Source: a virus
Length of the DNA: 21,723 nt
Reading direction: 5' to 3' (one strand)
IMG/VR virus record: IMGVR_UViG_3300034160_000008
Location: 1 to 21,723 of that record
The notes below the pieces were generated by a model. It made no database searches, was not told where the DNA came from, and saw only the letters and a list, made by a program, of their open reading frames with translations. Below are positions 7,393 through 21,591 of this stretch, one piece after another. The first letter of the stretch is position 1; every line of letters begins with the position of its first letter. A program made the translations under genes and the position numbers.

Positions 7393-7718
7393 GCCTTGTT
7401 ACCCGTTTCTAGAGCCTCGATACGCTTCAATGCGTCTTGTAAAGCAACTTCCAACATATCAAGCTTATCAGCCGACTTGTTAAATGTTTCAGCAATCATC
7501 TCTTCTGCAGCTACATCTGACAGGGCTTCTAGTGGAGCTACATGAAGATACGGTACAGTGTTTGGATCTGCCACCAATGCATCATAAAGCGCTTCAACGT
7601 CAAACTCTGCGCCTGTATCCTCTCTTACAGCTGTAAAAGGTATCCAGCCATACTTGGGATGATTGATCTCACAATCAATAGTGGTCTCAGTCGAATAGTA
7701 CGGATTACGATATTCCAT
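7389..7718 (-). CDS. Putative tail-fibre assembly / XkdW-like protein
   Basis: A 109-residue protein starting [20 protein letters not shown] and continuing PKYGWIPFTA. This opening is typical of small phage proteins encoded just after tail-fibre genes (tail fibre chaperone or XkdW/DUF4376-like). The C-terminus is a predicted coiled coil (KLDMLEVALQDALKRIEALE). The frame is open further upstream to 7838, but the ATG at 7718 overlaps the stop of the collagen-like fibre gene (TAATG). That, together with the familiar N-terminus, decides the start. Its likely job is folding or attaching the fibre encoded directly before it; this is inferred from position and the N-terminal pattern. Confidence 0.65.
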   Translation of the reverse strand: MEYRNPYYSTETTIDCEINHPKYGWIPFTAVREDTGAEFDVEALYDALVADPNTVPYLHVAPLEALSDVAAEEMIAETFNKSADKLDMLEVALQDALKRIEALETGNKA

Positions 7719-8497
7719 TATGCGTACCTTACCCAAAGGGATGGAGAACCCGCAGTTGTATTTGCCGCTTGCCCAAGTAGACGCCATGAGCCAGCTGGTG
7801 CGGCTGCACCGGCAGGTATACCACTGCCATGTGCCCATCGCAAACCCGAGCCGGCCTGCACAGAATCTACGACCATAGCAGCTGGAGGTGTTCTGGCAAG
7901 AAAACCATAGGTTCCAACAGCGCCGTAGCCTAGTCCTGCTGTGGCAGCTAGTACATTAGCCGTAGTTACACTTGCAGATGAACCAGCTGGACCCTGAGGA
8001 CCCGTAGGACCAGTGGCCCCATCCAAACCGTTTGTACCATTTGTACCATTTGTACCCGCAGGACCTTGTGGACCTGTCGGACCCGTAGGACCGGCCGGAC
8101 CTTGAGGACCCGTGGGACCAACAGGCCCACCGGACGGGCCAGTGGCACCCGTAGCACCTTGCGGACCAGTAGGTCCTGGGACAGTACTATCTGCTCCAGT
8201 AGCGCCTGTCGGGCCTATAGGCCCTTGAGGACCAGTTGGACCCGTCGGACCAGCAGGGCCTTGGGGACCAGTTGGACCAGGGGGGCCTCCAGACGGACCT
8301 GTCGGACCAGTAGGACCCGCAGGACCCGTCGGACCAGTAGCGCCACTTCCGCCGCCAGACGCAATAAACTCTTCAAATTCATTCTTGCTAAGCTTAGTGT
8401 CAAGTGCGCGCTGCACAGCAGTACGATTATTCTGCTGATCATTTTCGCTATACTGCTTGCTGGGCCGGGGTAGTGACGGCCTGTACATGTCGCTCAT
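7718..8497 (-). CDS. Collagen-like tail fibre protein
   Basis: A 259-residue protein in three parts. Residues 1-51 form a probable virion-attachment region ([20 protein letters not shown]). Residues 52-172 are collagen-like Gly-X-Y triplets, mostly [12 protein letters not shown], broken at SGGPP, DSTVP and SGGPV. The last 87 residues form a non-repetitive, Ala/Gly-rich C-terminal domain ([19 protein letters not shown]) that probably trimerises or binds receptor. Collagen-like segments in phage fibres form rigid triple helices. The start overlaps the nozzle gene's stop (ATGA) and the stop overlaps the assembly-type gene (TAATG). Confidence 0.85.
7982..8344 (-). repeat. Gly-X-Y collagen-like coding repeat
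   Basis: About 40 Gly-X-Y triplets, with an internal duplication: the sequence PSGGP(P/V)[10 protein letters not shown] and about 25 following residues occur twice. At 8031-8057 there is a true DNA tandem repeat, three copies of the 9-mer TTTGTACCA (the last with a final C), encoding GTNGTNGTN. Confidence 0.85.
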
Positions 8498-10773: not shown

Positions 10774-11226
10774 TTAATGGGTTAAGAACAGTTTCTTCTC
10801 TGCTTCACGACGGCGAGTTAGGCCAGCCATGACTTTGCCAGCGGCCTTATTCCACAAAAGGAATGAATTTGCAGCGCCCGCCGTATCTCCTGCGTTAAAT
10901 TTTTTCACAACTGACGACTTAGCAAAATTGCCAGGCCCAATATTATAACAAAGACTAACCATTGCTCCAAACTGATTTGACGCAGGCTCTTTAGTGATTG
11001 CCTTAGATACTGCATTTTCGTATTTTTCTAATGACTTTACCAAGTACTCATCAGCTTGAGCCTGTGTAATGGTAAGCCCTTTATACACTTTTATAATCCC
11101 AGCAGCAGACGTCAAACCGTAACCAATAGTCCAAGGCTCACCGCCTGTACCAGGATCAGGATACGCCTTTAACCTGCAGCCTTCAAACTGCTTAATCAAA
11201 TCAATTCCTGCTTTATTAGTTTTCAT
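10774..11226 (-). CDS. Endolysin, T4-type lysozyme (GH24 muramidase)
   Basis: A 150-residue lysozyme of the T4/P22 family, which hydrolyses peptidoglycan at lysis. The start is the ATG at 11226, six bases after GGAGG; it overlaps the stop of the preceding small gene (TAATG). The catalytic arrangement is visible: Glu15 in KQFEGCRLKAY, Asp24 in PDPGTGG and Thr33 in PWTIGYG. Later family features include SLCYNIGPGNFAKSSVVKKF and a C-terminus with AGLTRRREAEKKLF. There is no signal peptide or signal-anchor segment, so export probably depends on a holin. A longer frame to 11247 (MWPWRHL) lacks support. It is distinct from the virion lysozyme at 1198-2043. Confidence 0.92.
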   Translation of the reverse strand: MKTNKAGIDLIKQFEGCRLKAYPDPGTGGEPWTIGYGLTSAAGIIKVYKGLTITQAQADEYLVKSLEKYENAVSKAITKEPASNQFGAMVSLCYNIGPGNFAKSSVVKKFNAGDTAGAANSFLLWNKAAGKVMAGLTRRREAEKKLFLTH

Positions 11227-11366
11227 TAAATGCCTCCACGGCCACAAGAGCTTATTCTTGACATCAGCACATGATCGTTATATTCTGAGCGCACTGCTTC
11301 TGTGACAACAAGTATCGCCAATATGGCAAGAACAGCACCAGAAATATGTTGAGTAAGTTTGGTCAT
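11226..11366 (-). CDS. 46-residue single-pass membrane protein
   Basis: A very short gene. Both ends interlock with neighbours: its ATG at 11366 shares bases with the upstream stop (TAATG), and its TAA at 11226-11228 shares bases with the endolysin ATG (TAATG). The protein is MTKLTQHISGAVLAILAILV and continues VTEAVRSEYNDHVLMSRISS and CGRGGI. A hydrophobic stretch spans residues 8-22, followed by a polar tail with one cysteine. Its position directly before the endolysin suggests a lysis accessory (holin-, antiholin- or spanin-like), but I do not recognise the family. No lipobox is seen. Confidence 0.65.
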   Translation of the reverse strand: MTKLTQHISGAVLAILAILVVTEAVRSEYNDHVLMSRISSCGRGGI

Positions 11367-12678: not shown

Positions 12679-13209
12679 TTACCGACCATAGTAGCTATCG
12701 TTATTCTGACTGTATGAATTATACGAATTACTTGGAGCAACTCGATCACCGTATTTAGCATACCCAACCTGGCCACCGCCCAAAACAACATTATTATTAA
12801 ACGTATTGCCTGCAAAGCTAGGGTCATACGGCGCACGATCGTAAGAAATCTTTGGACTAAAGATGTTTTGAAGCATTCCGGGAATAGCGTTTTGCGGCAC
12901 ATAAGAGGCGGGGGTAGGAGCAGGATAGGTTGGCCTATTCAGCACACGGCTTATAACACCTTGTACTATAGGATGATTTACAAGCTGCTGAACCATAGGG
13001 TGAAGGGCCGGAGCAGGGGCGGGTGTCTTCATCTGCGTGCCGGAAACCGATCCGCTCATAACACCCGTATTGCCGCCTAACCTACCACCAAAACCCCCAC
13101 CTCCGCCTCCGCCACCCATACCTCCACCGATGCCGCCATTACCTAGTCCACCGGCGCCACCGCCGCCAGGGCGACCCATGTTAGAACCAAAGTCATCGCG
13201 AGCGCTCAT
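12679..13209 (-). CDS. Gly-rich putative virion protein
   Basis: A 176-residue protein whose first ~50 residues are almost all Gly ([20 protein letters not shown]). A helical Pro-bordered middle follows ([20 protein letters not shown]), then a Tyr/Asn/Ser-rich C-terminus ([15 protein letters not shown]). The Gly-rich arm may be a flexible linker to another virion part. AAGGC lies six bases before the ATG, a modest ribosome site. The gene lies nine bases after the Ig-like gene and is followed 11 bases later by the tail fibre. No family is recognised; a tail or fibre-attachment role is inferred from position. Confidence 0.6.
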
Positions 13210-15425: not shown

Positions 15426-16451
15426 TTAACCCTGCGTATCCGCGATGATCGCATGGGCAGCTTCGTTACCAACCCACAGCGTGTACTGCGAGCTGATCAA
15501 GGTGTTGTCAGTGAGACCGGTGCGCGCCAGCGGCTGCTGACGAGTCGGCCACATATTGCACACGGCCACGTAGTCCGGGTCCAGGATGTGAACGTCAGCA
15601 CCAACGCTGAAGCGGTCCGGAACGATGGTCACTTCACCAAAGTCCGACTTGTACACGTCAACAGCGCTGATCAGCTTCTGGCTGTCAGTGGAGTTGTAGC
15701 GCGTGCCATAAGCGTTGAAGGTCTTCGAGATGAGACGCTTGTTGGTCGGGCTGCAGAGCACGTAACGGGGACGACCGCCAGAGTTCCAAGCAGCCTGGAT
15801 GCCGTTGTTCAGAAGGTCTTCAGTCAGTGCACGCAGAGTGCCGGCGCCTGCAGCAGCGTTCGGGTAGCCGTTGGTGGAGCCCGACAGGGTCGGAGCGGTA
15901 CCAGTGGCGCCGCGCTGAGCATTAGTCAGGTAGAAAGCCGGCATGCCAGCCGCCTGGCGGGTCGTCGCACCGTTAGCCGCACCGGGAACCGCCGGCACGT
16001 TCTGAAGGAGAAGCGTTTCCTTGTCGCGCTTCAGCTCGAGCAGCTTGTAGGTGATCTGCTTGGACTTCATCAGAATCTGCGCAGCGTCATCCACAGCCTG
16101 GGAAGTGTCAGACAGCTTCAGGTTCTTCACAGAAATCTGCGTGTAGTTGCCGCGACGCGAGGCATAGTCAGGGGTGCTGACAGCCGGCGCATCTTCACCT
16201 TCTGCAACGCGGTTCGAAGAGTTCACTGCAGCCAGGGCAAGCAGCGGCCATTCGTGATAAGTGTTGGTGCACTTACCGCCGTCCGTAGCAATCATGCTCA
16301 TGAACGGGGTCTCAGTCGGGGTGATACGGTTCTCAGCGTCCTGGAGGTCCTCGCGGATCACCTTGGCATTGTAGGTCTGAGCAGCCGAAGCATTGACCGC
16401 GTGCAGCACAGCGGCATACAGCGGGAGGGTAAGATTCCGAAGACGGAACAT
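15426..16451 (-). CDS. Major capsid protein, SU10-like (DUF5309-type)
   Basis: A 341-residue major head protein. From residue 25 on it fits the SU10-like capsid family: TYNAKVIREDLQDAENRITP and TETPFMSMI, then TNTYHEWPLLALAAVNSSNR followed by VAEGEDAPAV. Later come a helix KSKQITYKLLELKRDKETLL and a C-terminal part (VTIVPDRFSVGADVHILDPD). Such proteins form HK97-fold capsids. The start ATG has GGAGA seven bases ahead. Residues 1-24 (including LPLYAAVLHAVNASAA) are an unusual hydrophobic, signal-like extension before the usual family start. The gene is visibly more GC-rich than its neighbours, as expected for strong expression. Confidence 0.88.
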   Translation of the reverse strand: MFRLRNLTLPLYAAVLHAVNASAAQTYNAKVIREDLQDAENRITPTETPFMSMIATDGGKCTNTYHEWPLLALAAVNSSNRVAEGEDAPAVSTPDYASRRGNYTQISVKNLKLSDTSQAVDDAAQILMKSKQITYKLLELKRDKETLLLQNVPAVPGAANGATTRQAAGMPAFYLTNAQRGATGTAPTLSGSTNGYPNAAAGAGTLRALTEDLLNNGIQAAWNSGGRPRYVLCSPTNKRLISKTFNAYGTRYNSTDSQKLISAVDVYKSDFGEVTIVPDRFSVGADVHILDPDYVAVCNMWPTRQQPLARTGLTDNTLISSQYTLWVGNEAAHAIIADTQG

Positions 16452-16654: not shown

Positions 16655-17698
16655 TTAGTAACCGGTCTGCTTAGTCCTTGCACGCGGTGCCGACACAAGA
16701 AGCGTGGCAGCAACGTCGTCAATTGAACCGCTCTGCGCAGCACGAGCTAACGCAGCTTTTTCAGCCTTGACCGCATTCATCTTAGCACCAAAATTCTGCG
16801 AGCCCGGCCGAAGGAGAGGCTTGGGCTGCTGCCGCGGAGCACCGGCTGCTTTACCCTGACGAGCATTTTTGGCCTCAACCAACGCACGATATTTCATAGC
16901 ATCAGTGAGAACCAGCAAATGACGATGATCAACAATGCTAGCAATTTCTTCGTCATTAAACCCGTAAGCACGACCCGTCTTATTCCAGTTTTCGCTAAGC
17001 TTGCGAGCACTTTCAGCATTCTTAAGCTCAGGCATCTTTTTCATAAGAATGTCGGCCTGCTCAGCCGCAAACTCTTCCTGGCGCTTAGCCATCAGTGCAC
17101 GCTGCTGTTGCTGAGTCTCATAAGCAGCCTGCTGTACCTGCCGGCGCCTATTCTGCGTCTCTTGAATCTTGTCTTTCTCAAGCAAATAACGGCTCGGATC
17201 AAGCCTACGCAGCTGTTCCAAATCAACCTCGGGCTGCTCAGCCTGGGCAAGAATAGAATCCAAAGCAGTGAGGCGCTCATGCGTAGCGTTAAGCTGCTTC
17301 ATAAGCTCAGTCGTAACAACTTCCTGCTGCTTACGATACTCGCTAGCCTGCTGGACGCGCTGTTCAATTGCCTTGTTACCGCTATACGCGGCCTTCAATT
17401 CTTTCAGCTTAGCCTTAGTGGGCGCGCCATCCACAGTAACATCATACTCGACGTCATCAGGGTCTACCTGGACATCATCAGCATAATCTTCCTCAGTGTC
17501 GTCGCCTTCAAGCAGATCAACGTCTTCAAGATCAACAGAGTTGTCAACGTCGTCTTCGCCAACCTGGTCGTCACCTTCAGCCACACGGTTTGAAGGGTTA
17601 GCAGGTGTTTTGGTTACGGGCGCGTCTTCTGAGCCTACAAATAGGCTTTCAGCAACAGCGTCCAATCCGCCTTCAAATGTTTCGTTCTCGCCCGGCAT
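16655..17698 (-). CDS. Capsid scaffolding protein (putative)
   Basis: A 347-residue protein immediately before the capsid gene. Residues 1-90 are very acidic (VGEDDVDNSVDLEDVDLLEG, DDTEEDYADD). Residues about 90-235 are a long Gln/Glu/Lys-rich coiled coil (IEQRVQQASEYRKQQEVVTT, RRRQVQQAAYETQQQQRALM). The C-terminal part is basic (RQGKAAGAPRQQPKPLLRPG) and ends KQTGY. Acidic N-terminus, coiled coil and basic capsid-binding C-terminus are typical of podoviral scaffolds. It contains SNRVAEGDD at 36-44, almost identical to a segment of the capsid protein. The start overlaps the previous gene's stop (TAATG). Confidence 0.8.
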   Translation of the reverse strand: MPGENETFEGGLDAVAESLFVGSEDAPVTKTPANPSNRVAEGDDQVGEDDVDNSVDLEDVDLLEGDDTEEDYADDVQVDPDDVEYDVTVDGAPTKAKLKELKAAYSGNKAIEQRVQQASEYRKQQEVVTTELMKQLNATHERLTALDSILAQAEQPEVDLEQLRRLDPSRYLLEKDKIQETQNRRRQVQQAAYETQQQQRALMAKRQEEFAAEQADILMKKMPELKNAESARKLSENWNKTGRAYGFNDEEIASIVDHRHLLVLTDAMKYRALVEAKNARQGKAAGAPRQQPKPLLRPGSQNFGAKMNAVKAEKAALARAAQSGSIDDVAATLLVSAPRARTKQTGY

Positions 17699-17907
17699 TA
17701 TCGTGACATCCTTACATCATTAGCAATTTCGGTTAACTTTCCCTGCAACCGATCTAGGGCTCGTGCTTCGTCTCGTAGCTTGATAAGCGCAGCTACGTCG
17801 TCAGTCTCCATCATCGAACTAGCAATGTCTTGCTTCATAGAAAGGAACAGTTGGTCAAAATACTGGTTTTCGACAATAGCCAGAATCTGAACTTTAATCG
17901 GGTCCAT
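17698..17907 (-). CDS. Small helical protein between Acb2/Tad1-like gene and scaffold
   Basis: The start is the ATG at 17907 (MDPIKVQILAIVENQYFDQL), which overlaps the previous stop (TGATG); GAAGG lies ten bases upstream. The frame is open to 17931, but that N-terminus overlaps the anti-defence gene. The 69 residues are two probable helices (FDQLFLSMKQDIASSMMETD; LIKLRDEARALDRLQGKLTE). Small helical proteins occur between portal and scaffold genes in many podoviruses; the function is unknown. Coupling to the scaffold by TAATG suggests matched production. Confidence 0.6.
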   Translation of the reverse strand: MDPIKVQILAIVENQYFDQLFLSMKQDIASSMMETDDVAALIKLRDEARALDRLQGKLTEIANDVRMSR

Positions 17908-18098
17908 CAGAAATTTGCCTTCACAGCCCACATAGCGGCTTGCTCGTAATTTGTCAGCGCAAGAGCTTTGCGACGACCATCAGGTACGTTGTCTTCCACA
18001 AACTGAATAAGTTCTTCAGTCATGCTTTTGATCTTTGCAACCACTTCGTTGCCCGAAGGGTTAAAGTTAGGAATTGTCGTTACTTTCTCGCCCGTCAT
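17907..18098 (-). CDS. Acb2/Tad1-like anti-defence protein (cyclic nucleotide sponge)
   Basis: A 63-residue helical hairpin. Helix one (about 16-37, GNEVVAKIKSMTEELIQFVE) is joined by PDGR (39-42) to helix two (RKALALTNYEQAAMWAVKA). The signature ELI...(V/I)E...P-x-G/S-R-x-K-(A/S)-LALT-x-x-E-x-A-x-MWA is that of the Acb2/Tad1 hairpin domain (formerly DUF7681). In characterised phages members bind cyclic oligonucleotides (CBASS) or gcADPR-type (Thoeris) signals and so block host immunity. The start ATG overlaps the portal stop (ATGA), with GGAGA seven bases ahead; its stop overlaps the next start. It sits inside the late head operon between portal and scaffold. The family match is by eye; the ligand is unknown. 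Confidence 0.72.
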   Translation of the reverse strand: MTGEKVTTIPNFNPSGNEVVAKIKSMTEELIQFVEDNVPDGRRKALALTNYEQAAMWAVKANF

Positions 18099-20317
18099 TG
18101 TACGCTCTCCGTTGTTTGCTGTGCAGCCTGCTGTGCAGCCATATCGGCATCTGCTTCCATTTGTTCACGAGCTACGCCGAGCTTGTACATATCGGCATAG
18201 AATTTAAGCATTGCTGCATCACGCTTTTGCTCAGACTCAATAAGTACCGCGCGCAGGTCCTGCATATTCTTGGTCTGCTGCTGCATCAGCTCACCCTGGA
18301 GCTTCTGTACTTCTGCGGCATGCTGTTGCTGCATCTTAGCAATAGCTTCCTGGAATTTCAGCTGGTTTTTCTGAGCTTCAACCTGGACCATTTCCTTCAT
18401 GGCGTCGGCCTGCTGCTTCTGTATCATCAGCTGAGCCTGACCAGCCTGAATCTGCATATCAGAGCTCTGCTTAGAAGCTGCCTTCTGATCCTGGTCAAGT
18501 TTCTGAACCATCATCGGAGGCACCCACGGCAAGTAGTCTGTCGTGTTGTGAATGCCAGAAAGCCTCAGCATTGTAGCCCAGCTATTGCGCAGATTATCCC
18601 AATTACACAGGGGATTAGCAGGACCTGCCTTTTCAAGAAGCGCGGTCTGAAACTGAATAAGACCCTGGAGAACCATCTTCTTTTCGTCAATCTTACCAGA
18701 GCCAAGACCAACATTGATCTTGATGCTCATGTCGTCCGTCCACGCGGAAGGAACAACTGTTGCATAGCCCCACGCCGTCTTAACGCTCTGAGGCCCTTCA
18801 AGCTCGTGAATAGCCACGTTCATAATAGTATTGAACAGCGACTTAACACCAGTCTCACCAAGGTTACGCGCCATCATCTCAATGCGCGCATCACTATTAG
18901 ATACCATTGCACCTGCGCCTACACGAGACGTGGACTGCAGTGCATCTGGATCAATACCCTGGCTAAGCTTAGTAATGCCAGTGCGCTTCTCGGACACTTC
19001 TTGCATAAACTGCAGTACCGGAAGCGTTTGGGACATCGTGGCTGGCGTCACCAGCTCTTCAACCATGCCCATTTCTTTAACGCGGATAATTGCGCCAATA
19101 TCGCCATTCTTAAGATCGTTAAGGTTGACCTTAGCTTCATTGGCAGCAGTACGAGGGCTATTGACCAAGGCTGCGTTATCAATGATAGACCGCATCATTG
19201 CAGTCTGCGCATCCTGATCCTGGATCAGATCTTCAGCCAGCGAAATGGGCGCAAACACGTGGGGCTGAATGACCGACTTAGCTACTGCAAACGGCACGTA
19301 GTTCACGGGTTCGTTCGACAGCACTTCATAGTTAATGCCACCACATACAATGCGACGCAGCTCTTGAACGCCATCACCGTCAACATCAAGCCACACATAA
19401 GCTTCCGTCAGAATAATGGTCGCCGACAAAGGGTCAATGTCTTTGGTATTGTCGGTGTTAGTATTGGTGTAGCCACGACGATCATCGCGCTCAGTAGTCG
19501 TCTGCTCGTCATCAGTAGATGCAAGCTCAAGCAGGTCTTCTTCCGGGTACCCAAGAGCTACACCGTCAGCAACTGTGACCTCACGACGATGCGCTAGAAC
19601 CTGGAAGTCATACTGCGACTTTGCATTGGCGTCATAAATAAATTCTTCAGGCGGAATCGGGTCAAGATGCCAAATGGTTCTTTCAACCAGCTGGGTATAA
19701 ACATTTGTCTCTTCATCAGCTTCTGTCAGCTGAGGAGCGCCAGCCTCACCCTCGAGCAAATCCTCGGGGTCAGCTGCATCCATAGGTCCAACCAGCGCCT
19801 CAGGGGGCGAGTCCTCGGCAACTGGCTGTTCCCCCTCTGTGCCCATGCCCACCGGGGGAGGAGTGACAGGCACATAAGCGTGTACGGGGACTTTCTTTTT
19901 CTCAACCCAAACCTTGACTACACCAAGACGTGCCTTAAGAGCATCGGTAGACATAGAAATGAGCGACGTGTAACCATCGAATTTGTCATACACATGGTTA
20001 CAGAAAATGGTAGCTTCCTTAGTAGACTTTTCACCCTTCGGGTCATCGGTCCAAAATTCAGCAATCGTGTCAGTCTGCGTAAAGATACGCGCCACTGAAG
20101 GGATAACGGAATTAACACCGGACCGCACGCAGTCCACAATAACCTGGGAACGGCCAGGAAGGCTGTCAAGATCGGTGCCACCCTGATAGTACAAGTCTGC
20201 CAGCTCGCGATTGGGCTGCAGGTCCTGTTCCATAAAGTTTACGGCATCTTGCAATACACGCTGCATGTACTTCTGTACACGCGCAGGAGTAATGCCCTTG
20301 ACTTCTTTTTTAGCCAT
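18095..20317 (-). CDS. Portal protein, SU10-like
   Basis: A 740-residue portal, the ring through which DNA enters and leaves the head. The N-terminal region is typical of long podoviral portals: FMEQDLQPNRELADLYYQGG and LPGRSQVIVDCVRSGVNSVI, then ARIFTQTDTIAEFWTDDPKG. The core includes KRTGITKLSQGIDPDALQST and RVGAGAMVSNSDARIEMMAR. Residues about 610-735 form a long Gln-rich helix (the barrel region; IAKMQQQHAAEVQKLQGELM). An acidic Pro-rich insertion lies at about 150-205 (EDLLEGEAGAPQLTEADEET). The ATG overlaps the terminase stop (TAATG). Size and order after terminase leave little doubt. Confidence 0.88.
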   Translation of the reverse strand: MAKKEVKGITPARVQKYMQRVLQDAVNFMEQDLQPNRELADLYYQGGTDLDSLPGRSQVIVDCVRSGVNSVIPSVARIFTQTDTIAEFWTDDPKGEKSTKEATIFCNHVYDKFDGYTSLISMSTDALKARLGVVKVWVEKKKVPVHAYVPVTPPPVGMGTEGEQPVAEDSPPEALVGPMDAADPEDLLEGEAGAPQLTEADEETNVYTQLVERTIWHLDPIPPEEFIYDANAKSQYDFQVLAHRREVTVADGVALGYPEEDLLELASTDDEQTTTERDDRRGYTNTNTDNTKDIDPLSATIILTEAYVWLDVDGDGVQELRRIVCGGINYEVLSNEPVNYVPFAVAKSVIQPHVFAPISLAEDLIQDQDAQTAMMRSIIDNAALVNSPRTAANEAKVNLNDLKNGDIGAIIRVKEMGMVEELVTPATMSQTLPVLQFMQEVSEKRTGITKLSQGIDPDALQSTSRVGAGAMVSNSDARIEMMARNLGETGVKSLFNTIMNVAIHELEGPQSVKTAWGYATVVPSAWTDDMSIKINVGLGSGKIDEKKMVLQGLIQFQTALLEKAGPANPLCNWDNLRNSWATMLRLSGIHNTTDYLPWVPPMMVQKLDQDQKAASKQSSDMQIQAGQAQLMIQKQQADAMKEMVQVEAQKNQLKFQEAIAKMQQQHAAEVQKLQGELMQQQTKNMQDLRAVLIESEQKRDAAMLKFYADMYKLGVAREQMEADADMAAQQAAQQTTESVQ

Positions 20318-21591
20318 TATACGTACGTCCCTCTAGCGTCTCGCGCAATCGGCTCATCCCAATCGGAATGCGATGCGCTAAAGTATTCGTTCATGCTCAT
20401 GATGGCATATCGCATAGCATCAGCACCGTTGGAATACTTGTCATGCCGAGGCTTATTGCGGAGAACCTGGTGCTTGCTGTTGTAATCGCTACGATAGTTG
20501 CGCAGCGCTTTGATGCCTTCTTTACAGCCTTCAGCATCAAACCACATACGCGAAAATGCCATGCGCACAGCGTTGATGCCATCCTCTACGCTAGTACGGC
20601 TCAGCACTTCTACATTCACATTGCGGTCTTCAAAGATCTGAACGCGGGATTTACCCACACCAAGCTCACGCACCTTCGCATCATGCGGCAGGTATACGGT
20701 GTCTACGGGATAGTCCAAGTTCTTGAGCCACGTGATATAATGGTCAAGACTCTTTCCTGTGTTGGCGTAGTATTTAAGGAAGCGCCATTCGTTTGCGTAC
20801 AGCTGGTAAACCCAAATCGCCGTAGCATCCGCCATGCCCAAGTCAATAGCAGCGTAGACTTCCAGGCTCTCGTCTCTGGCCACACGCTTAATGCGCCCTT
20901 CTTCTTGGGCGGTCTCAATATTAGATGCATAATAGTTACCCGGGAATGCAGCGGAGAAGCTAACTTCATACTCACGCTCAAACGCTTCAGGCGTCAGCAT
21001 CTTTCTTGCAGCAGCTAGTTCCTCGGGGTCCAGGATATGGCTCTCACTGGCCTTCAGGCGCATGTGGTACCAGTCTGGGTCATTCTGCGCATTCTGATAC
21101 AGGTCGAAGAACACGTCTTCACCCATCGGGGTACCGATGAAGATAGCCTTACCCTTACGGTCTGAAAGAGCAGGACGTACAACACCCTCCCAAATCGCCG
21201 ATAGATCCATGGACGCCGGCTCGTCAAATGCAGCCGTATCAGCATAAATACCACGAATACGATCAGGGTTTTCAGCCCCGTACAGCCTAATAGAAGCACC
21301 AGTAGGAAAAGTGCACCGTAGTTCGGCCTCATGGAAGTCCATACCCGGGATTTCACGAGTATAGTGCTTTAAATATTTCCAGGAAATATCTTTTGCCTGG
21401 GCAAATGAAGGAGCAATGAAGATACCACGCGGGTTAGGCAACGGGCACTGGAGTACCGTCTTAATCTGCTCATTCAGAACAGACACAGTCTTACCAGCAC
21501 GTCGATGGCATACCAGAATAGAAAAGCGCTTACCCGAGTTATGGAACGGGATAAACGCCTTTCTCGGCTGATATGGGATATTAATCTTCAA
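20317..21591 (-). CDS. Terminase large subunit
   Basis: A 424-residue DNA-packaging motor. The ATPase domain has Walker A CHRRAGKT (28-35), Walker B with the catalytic Glu in AAFDEPA (Asp123, Glu124) and the coupling motif IFIGTPMG (150-157). The nuclease domain has probable metal-binding residues Asp250 (AIDLGMADAT), Asp304 (HDAK) and Asp391 (YSNGADAMRYA). The start is a TTG at 21591: an in-frame stop lies two codons before it, no ATG is available until residue 84, and AGGA lies nine bases upstream. It overlaps the previous gene's stop (TTGA). It is followed by the portal gene, with overlapping codons. Confidence 0.93.
   Translation of the reverse strand: MKINIPYQPRKAFIPFHNSGKRFSILVCHRRAGKTVSVLNEQIKTVLQCPLPNPRGIFIAPSFAQAKDISWKYLKHYTREIPGMDFHEAELRCTFPTGASIRLYGAENPDRIRGIYADTAAFDEPASMDLSAIWEGVVRPALSDRKGKAIFIGTPMGEDVFFDLYQNAQNDPDWYHMRLKASESHILDPEELAAARKMLTPEAFEREYEVSFSAAFPGNYYASNIETAQEEGRIKRVARDESLEVYAAIDLGMADATAIWVYQLYANEWRFLKYYANTGKSLDHYITWLKNLDYPVDTVYLPHDAKVRELGVGKSRVQIFEDRNVNVEVLSRTSVEDGINAVRMAFSRMWFDAEGCKEGIKALRNYRSDYNSKHQVLRNKPRHDKYSNGADAMRYAIMSMNEYFSASHSDWDEPIARDARGTYV

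Follow-up and report, generated by a model that had tools for sequence, protein, structure and literature searches.

A short Acb2-family hairpin protein encoded between the portal and scaffold genes of an uncultured virus

Known Acb2 proteins are hexamers. In the Acb2 of phage PaP2, Y11 and K26 are presumably the residues of the cyclic-dinucleotide pocket, and R67 is taken here to be the cyclic-trinucleotide site at the threefold interface. A short N-terminal helix precedes the two long helices of Acb2 (reviewed in PMC12043709). In the T4 protein, F82 makes a stacking contact with the base and dinucleotide binding is disrupted by the Y8A substitution (PMC12657218); T68M reduces binding affinity (PMC12657230). 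In Tad1, by comparison, the protomer has an N-terminal beta-sheet, and conserved loops of this protomer make up the gcADPR pocket (reviewed in PMC12043709). CBASS itself can be triggered by head proteins: the prohead protease of Bas13 stimulates a CBASS cyclase, and Pseudomonas and Staphylococcus phages can avoid CBASS through mutations in the capsid (PMC11312562, PMC12409349).

The window, i.e., the whole stretch of DNA analyzed here, comprises 21,723 bases and comes from the record of an uncultured virus. Its minus strand carries, in this order, the genes for the large terminase subunit (TerL), an SU10-type portal protein, an Acb2-like protein, a 69-aa protein, a scaffolding protein and the major capsid protein:

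20317-21591, minus strand: terminase large subunit, 424 aa (PF03237, E 1.4e-07)
18095-20317, minus strand: portal protein, SU10 type, 740 aa (PF23899, 432.7 bits; phrog_1216)
17907-18098, minus strand: acb2-like gene, 63 aa, PF24729 Acb2/Tad1 hairpin (ORF, Pfam, AF2)
17908-18098, minus strand: 191-bp unit missing from the same junction in contigs L078 and L079 (junction alignment)
17698-17907, minus strand: 69-aa conserved protein, function unassigned, in the portal-scaffold interval (junction; same-slot homologues)
16655-17698, minus strand: head scaffolding protein, 347 aa (phrog_3927, E 4e-34)
15426-16451, minus strand: major capsid protein, SU10 type, 341 aa (PF17236, 239.8 bits; phrog_1328)

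The acb2-like gene is an intact reading frame of 63 codons, translated from 18098 to 17907 as MTGEKVTTIPNFNPSGNEVVAKIKSMTEELIQFVEDNVPDGRRKALALTNYEQAAMWAVKANF. An earlier sequence-only reading had given its coordinates and length correctly and left the minus strand unstated; the motif quoted there omits two residues of the actual string, ELIQFVEDNVPDGRRKALALTNYEQAAMWAVKANF, and is otherwise correct. Both junctions also read as had been claimed. The start codon overlaps the stop codon of the portal gene in an ATGA (CA followed by ATGACGGG), with a Shine–Dalgarno-like run, GGAGAG, shortly 5′ of it, and the stop codon overlaps the start of the next gene in a TGATG (TTCTGATGGAC). Because of this TGATG overlap, ATG 17907 is considered the start of the 69-aa gene, the GTG start in the open reading frame list (77 aa) being wrong. 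The TerL/portal and 69-aa/scaffold junctions are both TAATG, and since successive genes overlap in these ways, the chain from TerL over portal, acb2 and the 69-aa gene to scaffold is tightly packed. Promoter-like matches, including one at 18125-18097, are at chance level, and a DNA-level search with the head region gave no match among cultured phages. Elsewhere on the minus strand, a 259-aa protein with a long collagen-like repeat is encoded in the downstream structural/tail region (7718-8497), and a 176-aa glycine-rich protein lies amid tail-region genes (12679-13209; family search without notable match). A 157-aa reading frame, lysozyme-like by sequence (10774-11247), has homologues near acb2-like genes in contigs L008 and L016.

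A Pfam search, which the sequence-only reading had proposed as a check, matched residues 14-62 of the protein to PF24729 (Acb2/Tad1 hairpin) with 53.2 bits (E 3.4e-14), above the curated cut-off of 27 bits; the founding Acb2 of phage PaP2 reaches 65.3 bits with this family. In a six-frame search, 0 of 14 control genomes were positive for PF24729 and the window was positive again. The resemblance to the family is thus far above what chance would give. NCBIfam and PADLOC searches gave no match. Many relatives are 48-78% identical to the window protein; pairwise identity to characterized Acb2 proteins is only 19-25%. Sequence matches to Acb2-type proteins in the PDB are weak as well, with best E values of 0.011-0.016: a family profile built from 24 relatives found T4 Vs.4 (7uq2), Acb2 homolog 43 (9ptq) and several Tad1 chains at E 0.016 to 0.98, and the best match of the single sequence was Acb2 homolog 43 (E 0.011). 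The top PDB match of the profile, the designed TIM barrel 7mcd, was rejected as spurious, as it amounts to four weak repeats. The suggestion that the protein lies near the lower size limit of the family holds against characterized members (PaP2 93 aa, T4-type 88 aa, 9ptq 76 aa), but not within its own clade, where 60-68 aa is normal.

For the monomer, AlphaFold predicts the anticipated two-helix hairpin, with helices at residues 18-37 and 42-61, a mean pLDDT of 85 and no other domain; residues 1-17 are predicted as coil, with low confidence in residues 1-10. The model matches Vs.4 with Z 5.7 and rmsd 3.4 over 53 residues (23% identity), in an alignment that runs to residue 63 of the model and residue 82 of Vs.4, but the fold is generic and unrelated hairpins score as well. 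Foldseek against the PDB returned generic hairpins only (E > 1), with Vs.4 at rank 18, a result that is unconvincing and does not serve as main evidence. As unrelated hairpins are thus among the best structural matches too, it is the HMM that carries the Acb2 assignment. Together with the profile matches to solved Acb2 proteins, the predicted fold and the retained pocket residues, it supports membership of the Acb2-type hairpin family. Compared to PaP2 Acb2, the hairpin is approximately 25 residues shorter between the pocket lysine and the arginine, so that its oligomer and ligand range could differ from those of the PaP2 protein.

The positions that contact ligands in described Acb2 proteins have counterparts in the window protein. 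T4 Y8, T68 and F82 align with F12, T49 and F63, as mapped by means of the alignments and of Vs.4 as encoded by a T4-like phage, and PaP2 Y11, K26 and GR (66-67) align with F12, K24 and G41-R42. Loss of the ligand pocket residues, named in the sequence-only reading as an outcome that would speak against it, was therefore not what the alignment gave, since F12, K24, T49 and F63 are all present, and the cyclic-dinucleotide pocket appears to be retained. F12, R42 and T49 occur in 55/55 distinct relatives, K24 in 54/55 and F63 in 49/55 (Thr in the remaining six), although these counts are partly ascertained, because peptide patterns taken from the query served to find the relatives. Few columns in the clade are as conserved as those of the pocket. 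R42, invariant in the clade, aligns with PaP2 R67, but T4-type Vs.4 has no arginine in this column. The median dN/dS is 0.32 over usable pairs, with values down to 0.03 and mostly well below 1. These data also bear on the idea that the Acb2 fold has been kept for another small-molecule or regulatory role, or with a degenerate or inactive pocket. The low identity to characterized members and the shortened hairpin would fit this idea, as would the selection of binding-deficient Acb2 variants by Panoptes in other phages (PMC12657218, PMC12657230); however, the high conservation of the pocket columns, with F12 and R42 found throughout the clade, and the low dN/dS make it very unlikely.

The nearest portal relatives of the window are contigs L078 and L079 (portal 82-83%, capsid 90-93% identical; portal clade support 100/100), in which the portal gene is joined directly to the 69-aa gene. 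The whole difference in the junction alignment is one 191-bp block with both flanks intact, spanning the acb2 ATG to the base preceding the ATG of the next gene. In L078, L079, L002, L082 and L099, this slot holds a homologue of the 69-aa protein but no acb2. Because most other relatives lack acb2 at the portal/69-aa site as well, a gain in the lineage of the window would be the simpler reading, the three-way branching order not being settled by the portal tree. L078 and L079 are fragments, and acb2 could sit elsewhere in their genomes. PF24729 is absent from the complete genomes of the cultured phages DB2 (Octadecabacter DB virus 2), phiM5 and pCB2047-A, which have the same head-module type. 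The description of the gene as locked inside the head operon is thus wrong as an evolutionary statement, as sister contigs have the operon without acb2 and relatives carry the gene in other slots.

In DB2, the slot after the portal gene is taken by a different 73-aa protein, gp23, which also overlaps the portal stop (L061 6073-6294). It was rejected as an Acb2, its sequence being dissimilar and the DB2 genome having no PF24729 match; the portal-downstream junction seems to accept different small genes. At the other end of the portal gene, the large terminase is approximately 40-53% identical to that of L078 and L079 in matched pieces, versus 82-83% for the portal (window 20317-21591 and 18095-20317; L078 355-3536), which suggests mosaic exchange at the TerL/portal boundary.

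For relatives of the protein, the viral-contig search returned 58 loci, and bacterial genomes yielded seven clear loci, with Croceicoccus, Roseivivax, Hoeflea, Novosphingobium and Marinosulfonomonas as named genera. These genera, and the portal relatives phiM5 (Sinorhizobium), pCB2047-A (Sulfitobacter) and DB2 (Octadecabacter), indicate that the host is probably alphaproteobacterial. Within homologous head modules, the gene occupies at least four slots, scattered over the portal tree:

Small/large terminase interval: L001, L004, L005
Large terminase/portal interval: L044, L090
Directly after portal: the window; L051, with the same short overlap
After the capsid gene: L002, L018, L043

In other portal families, an acb2-like gene lies near terminase or portal genes in L011, L013, L032, L038, L040 and L049. 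Elsewhere, its neighbors are genes for endolysin or amidase, for ribonucleotide reductase, or for RecT, primase or DNA polymerase. An enrichment beside head genes (approximately 15 independent loci, merged by eye) was rejected as a claim, since the viral contigs had been chosen by hallmark genes (terminase, portal) and many are short. The best cultured-phage match is in Sulfitobacter phage phiCB2047-B (HQ317387.2 54471-55037; L060 5608-6174). It lies inside a larger, unannotated reading frame of 188 codons beside thymidylate synthase, so that the hairpin in this phage may be part of a fusion with a second domain.

The translationally coupled location between portal and scaffold, the repetition of the portal/acb2 overlap in L051 and the many relatives that adjoin terminase, portal or capsid genes could also be explained by a head/connector or virion-packaged component that shares the Acb2 hairpin fold or was recruited from Acb2. 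Such a protein would be expected to be conserved in sister phages, but it is encoded neither at the site in L078 and L079, despite their 82-83% identical portal and 90-93% identical capsid, nor in the complete DB2, phiM5 and pCB2047-A genomes, which lack the PF24729 family. Moreover, relatives are also neighbors of lysis genes and of genes for ribonucleotide reductase, RecT, primase and DNA polymerase, and the ligand-contact positions are conserved. Given the empty site and the varied positions, a virion or structural role appears disfavored and has little chance of being correct. The label Acb2/Tad1-like, anti-CBASS/anti-Thoeris, given in the sequence-only reading, stands for its Acb2 half by HMM, profile, fold and pocket; a Tad1-like anti-Thoeris protein that sequesters gcADPR is very unlikely. 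The Pfam family covers both and the Tad1 C-terminal helices match the profile weakly, but the N-terminal antiparallel beta-sheet domain is missing from these 63 aa (AF2 strand-free, first helix from residue 18). This speaks against a Tad1-style binding of gcADPR and leaves Tad1 identity unsupported.

The best reading of the sequences is that the acb2-like gene has been repeatedly gained as an accessory. With a probability of roughly 0.82, it encodes an accessory, short Acb2-type cyclic-nucleotide sponge, cargo gained at the portal/69-aa junction and co-expressed with the head genes. This accessory-cargo reading is backed by the homology, by the conserved pocket and purifying selection, and by the clean absence of the gene from the empty site together with the variation in slots. 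By its gain at this junction, the gene would borrow the transcription and the coupled translation of the head operon and would be expressed with the head genes; from the gene order, late expression is plausible. The hairpins would most likely mediate assembly into an Acb2-like oligomer, whose pockets would, judging by the alignment, consist of F12, K24, R42, T49 and F63. There the oligomer would bind cyclic di- and/or trinucleotides produced by CBASS-type enzymes of the host and would so prevent them from switching on their effectors. The putative function is thus most likely to sequester cyclic nucleotides of the CBASS type. As head proteins can trigger CBASS and the sponge would be made with the head genes, its production may be timed to the CBASS trigger.

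A wider and rather doubtful proposal is that a mini-Acb2 subfamily (60-68 aa) has been inserted repeatedly at late head/packaging junctions in phages probably of Alphaproteobacteria, the sponge being made alongside CBASS-triggering head proteins. Such a just-in-time counter-defence may limit early exposure to sponge sensors like Panoptes. The locus brings many uncultured phages and contigs of Alphaproteobacteria into the range of Acb2-type counter-defence, here with a hairpin of unusually short length. The empty site, which is exact to the base, and the variety of slots among homologous modules indicate that a counter-defence gene of less than 200 bp can come and go with the coupled translation of essential head genes undisturbed. 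If expression is late, the match between sponge timing and capsid-triggered CBASS activation becomes testable.

Compared to T4 Acb2 (Vs.4, 7uq2), the window protein shares the hairpin, the C-terminal pattern xIAxTxxxxAxMWAxxAxF, and counterparts of the stacking Phe, the binding-site Thr and the N-terminal aromatic residue. The T4 protein differs in its length (88 aa versus 63 aa), its longer helices and the absence of arginine from the R42 column; in the T4-like phage G8, acb2 adjoins regB-annotated genes, outside the head operon. PaP2 Acb2 (PDB 8H2J, PMC11722364) belongs to the same Pfam family, PF24729, and has its Y11, K26 and GR aligned, but counts 93 aa with approximately 25 extra hairpin residues, and its gene (24096-24377, minus strand) lies beside a DNA-replication cluster, also outside the head operon. 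Acb2 homolog 43 (9ptq) is likewise small (76 aa) and has the R-x-x-x-x-x-x-T-x-x-E-x-A pattern, whereas identity is low and the MWAVKANF end is absent. The C-terminal part of Tad1 is a helical hairpin that also falls into PF24729; in addition, Tad1 has an N-terminal beta-domain (PDB chains of 123-138 aa) that the window protein lacks. The SU10-like head modules of phiM5, pCB2047-A and DB2 have the portal gene, one or two small proteins, scaffold and capsid in the same order, but these complete genomes are without any Acb2 gene. Altogether, the window protein is a new, short member of the Acb2 family, in an uncommon yet non-fixed place.
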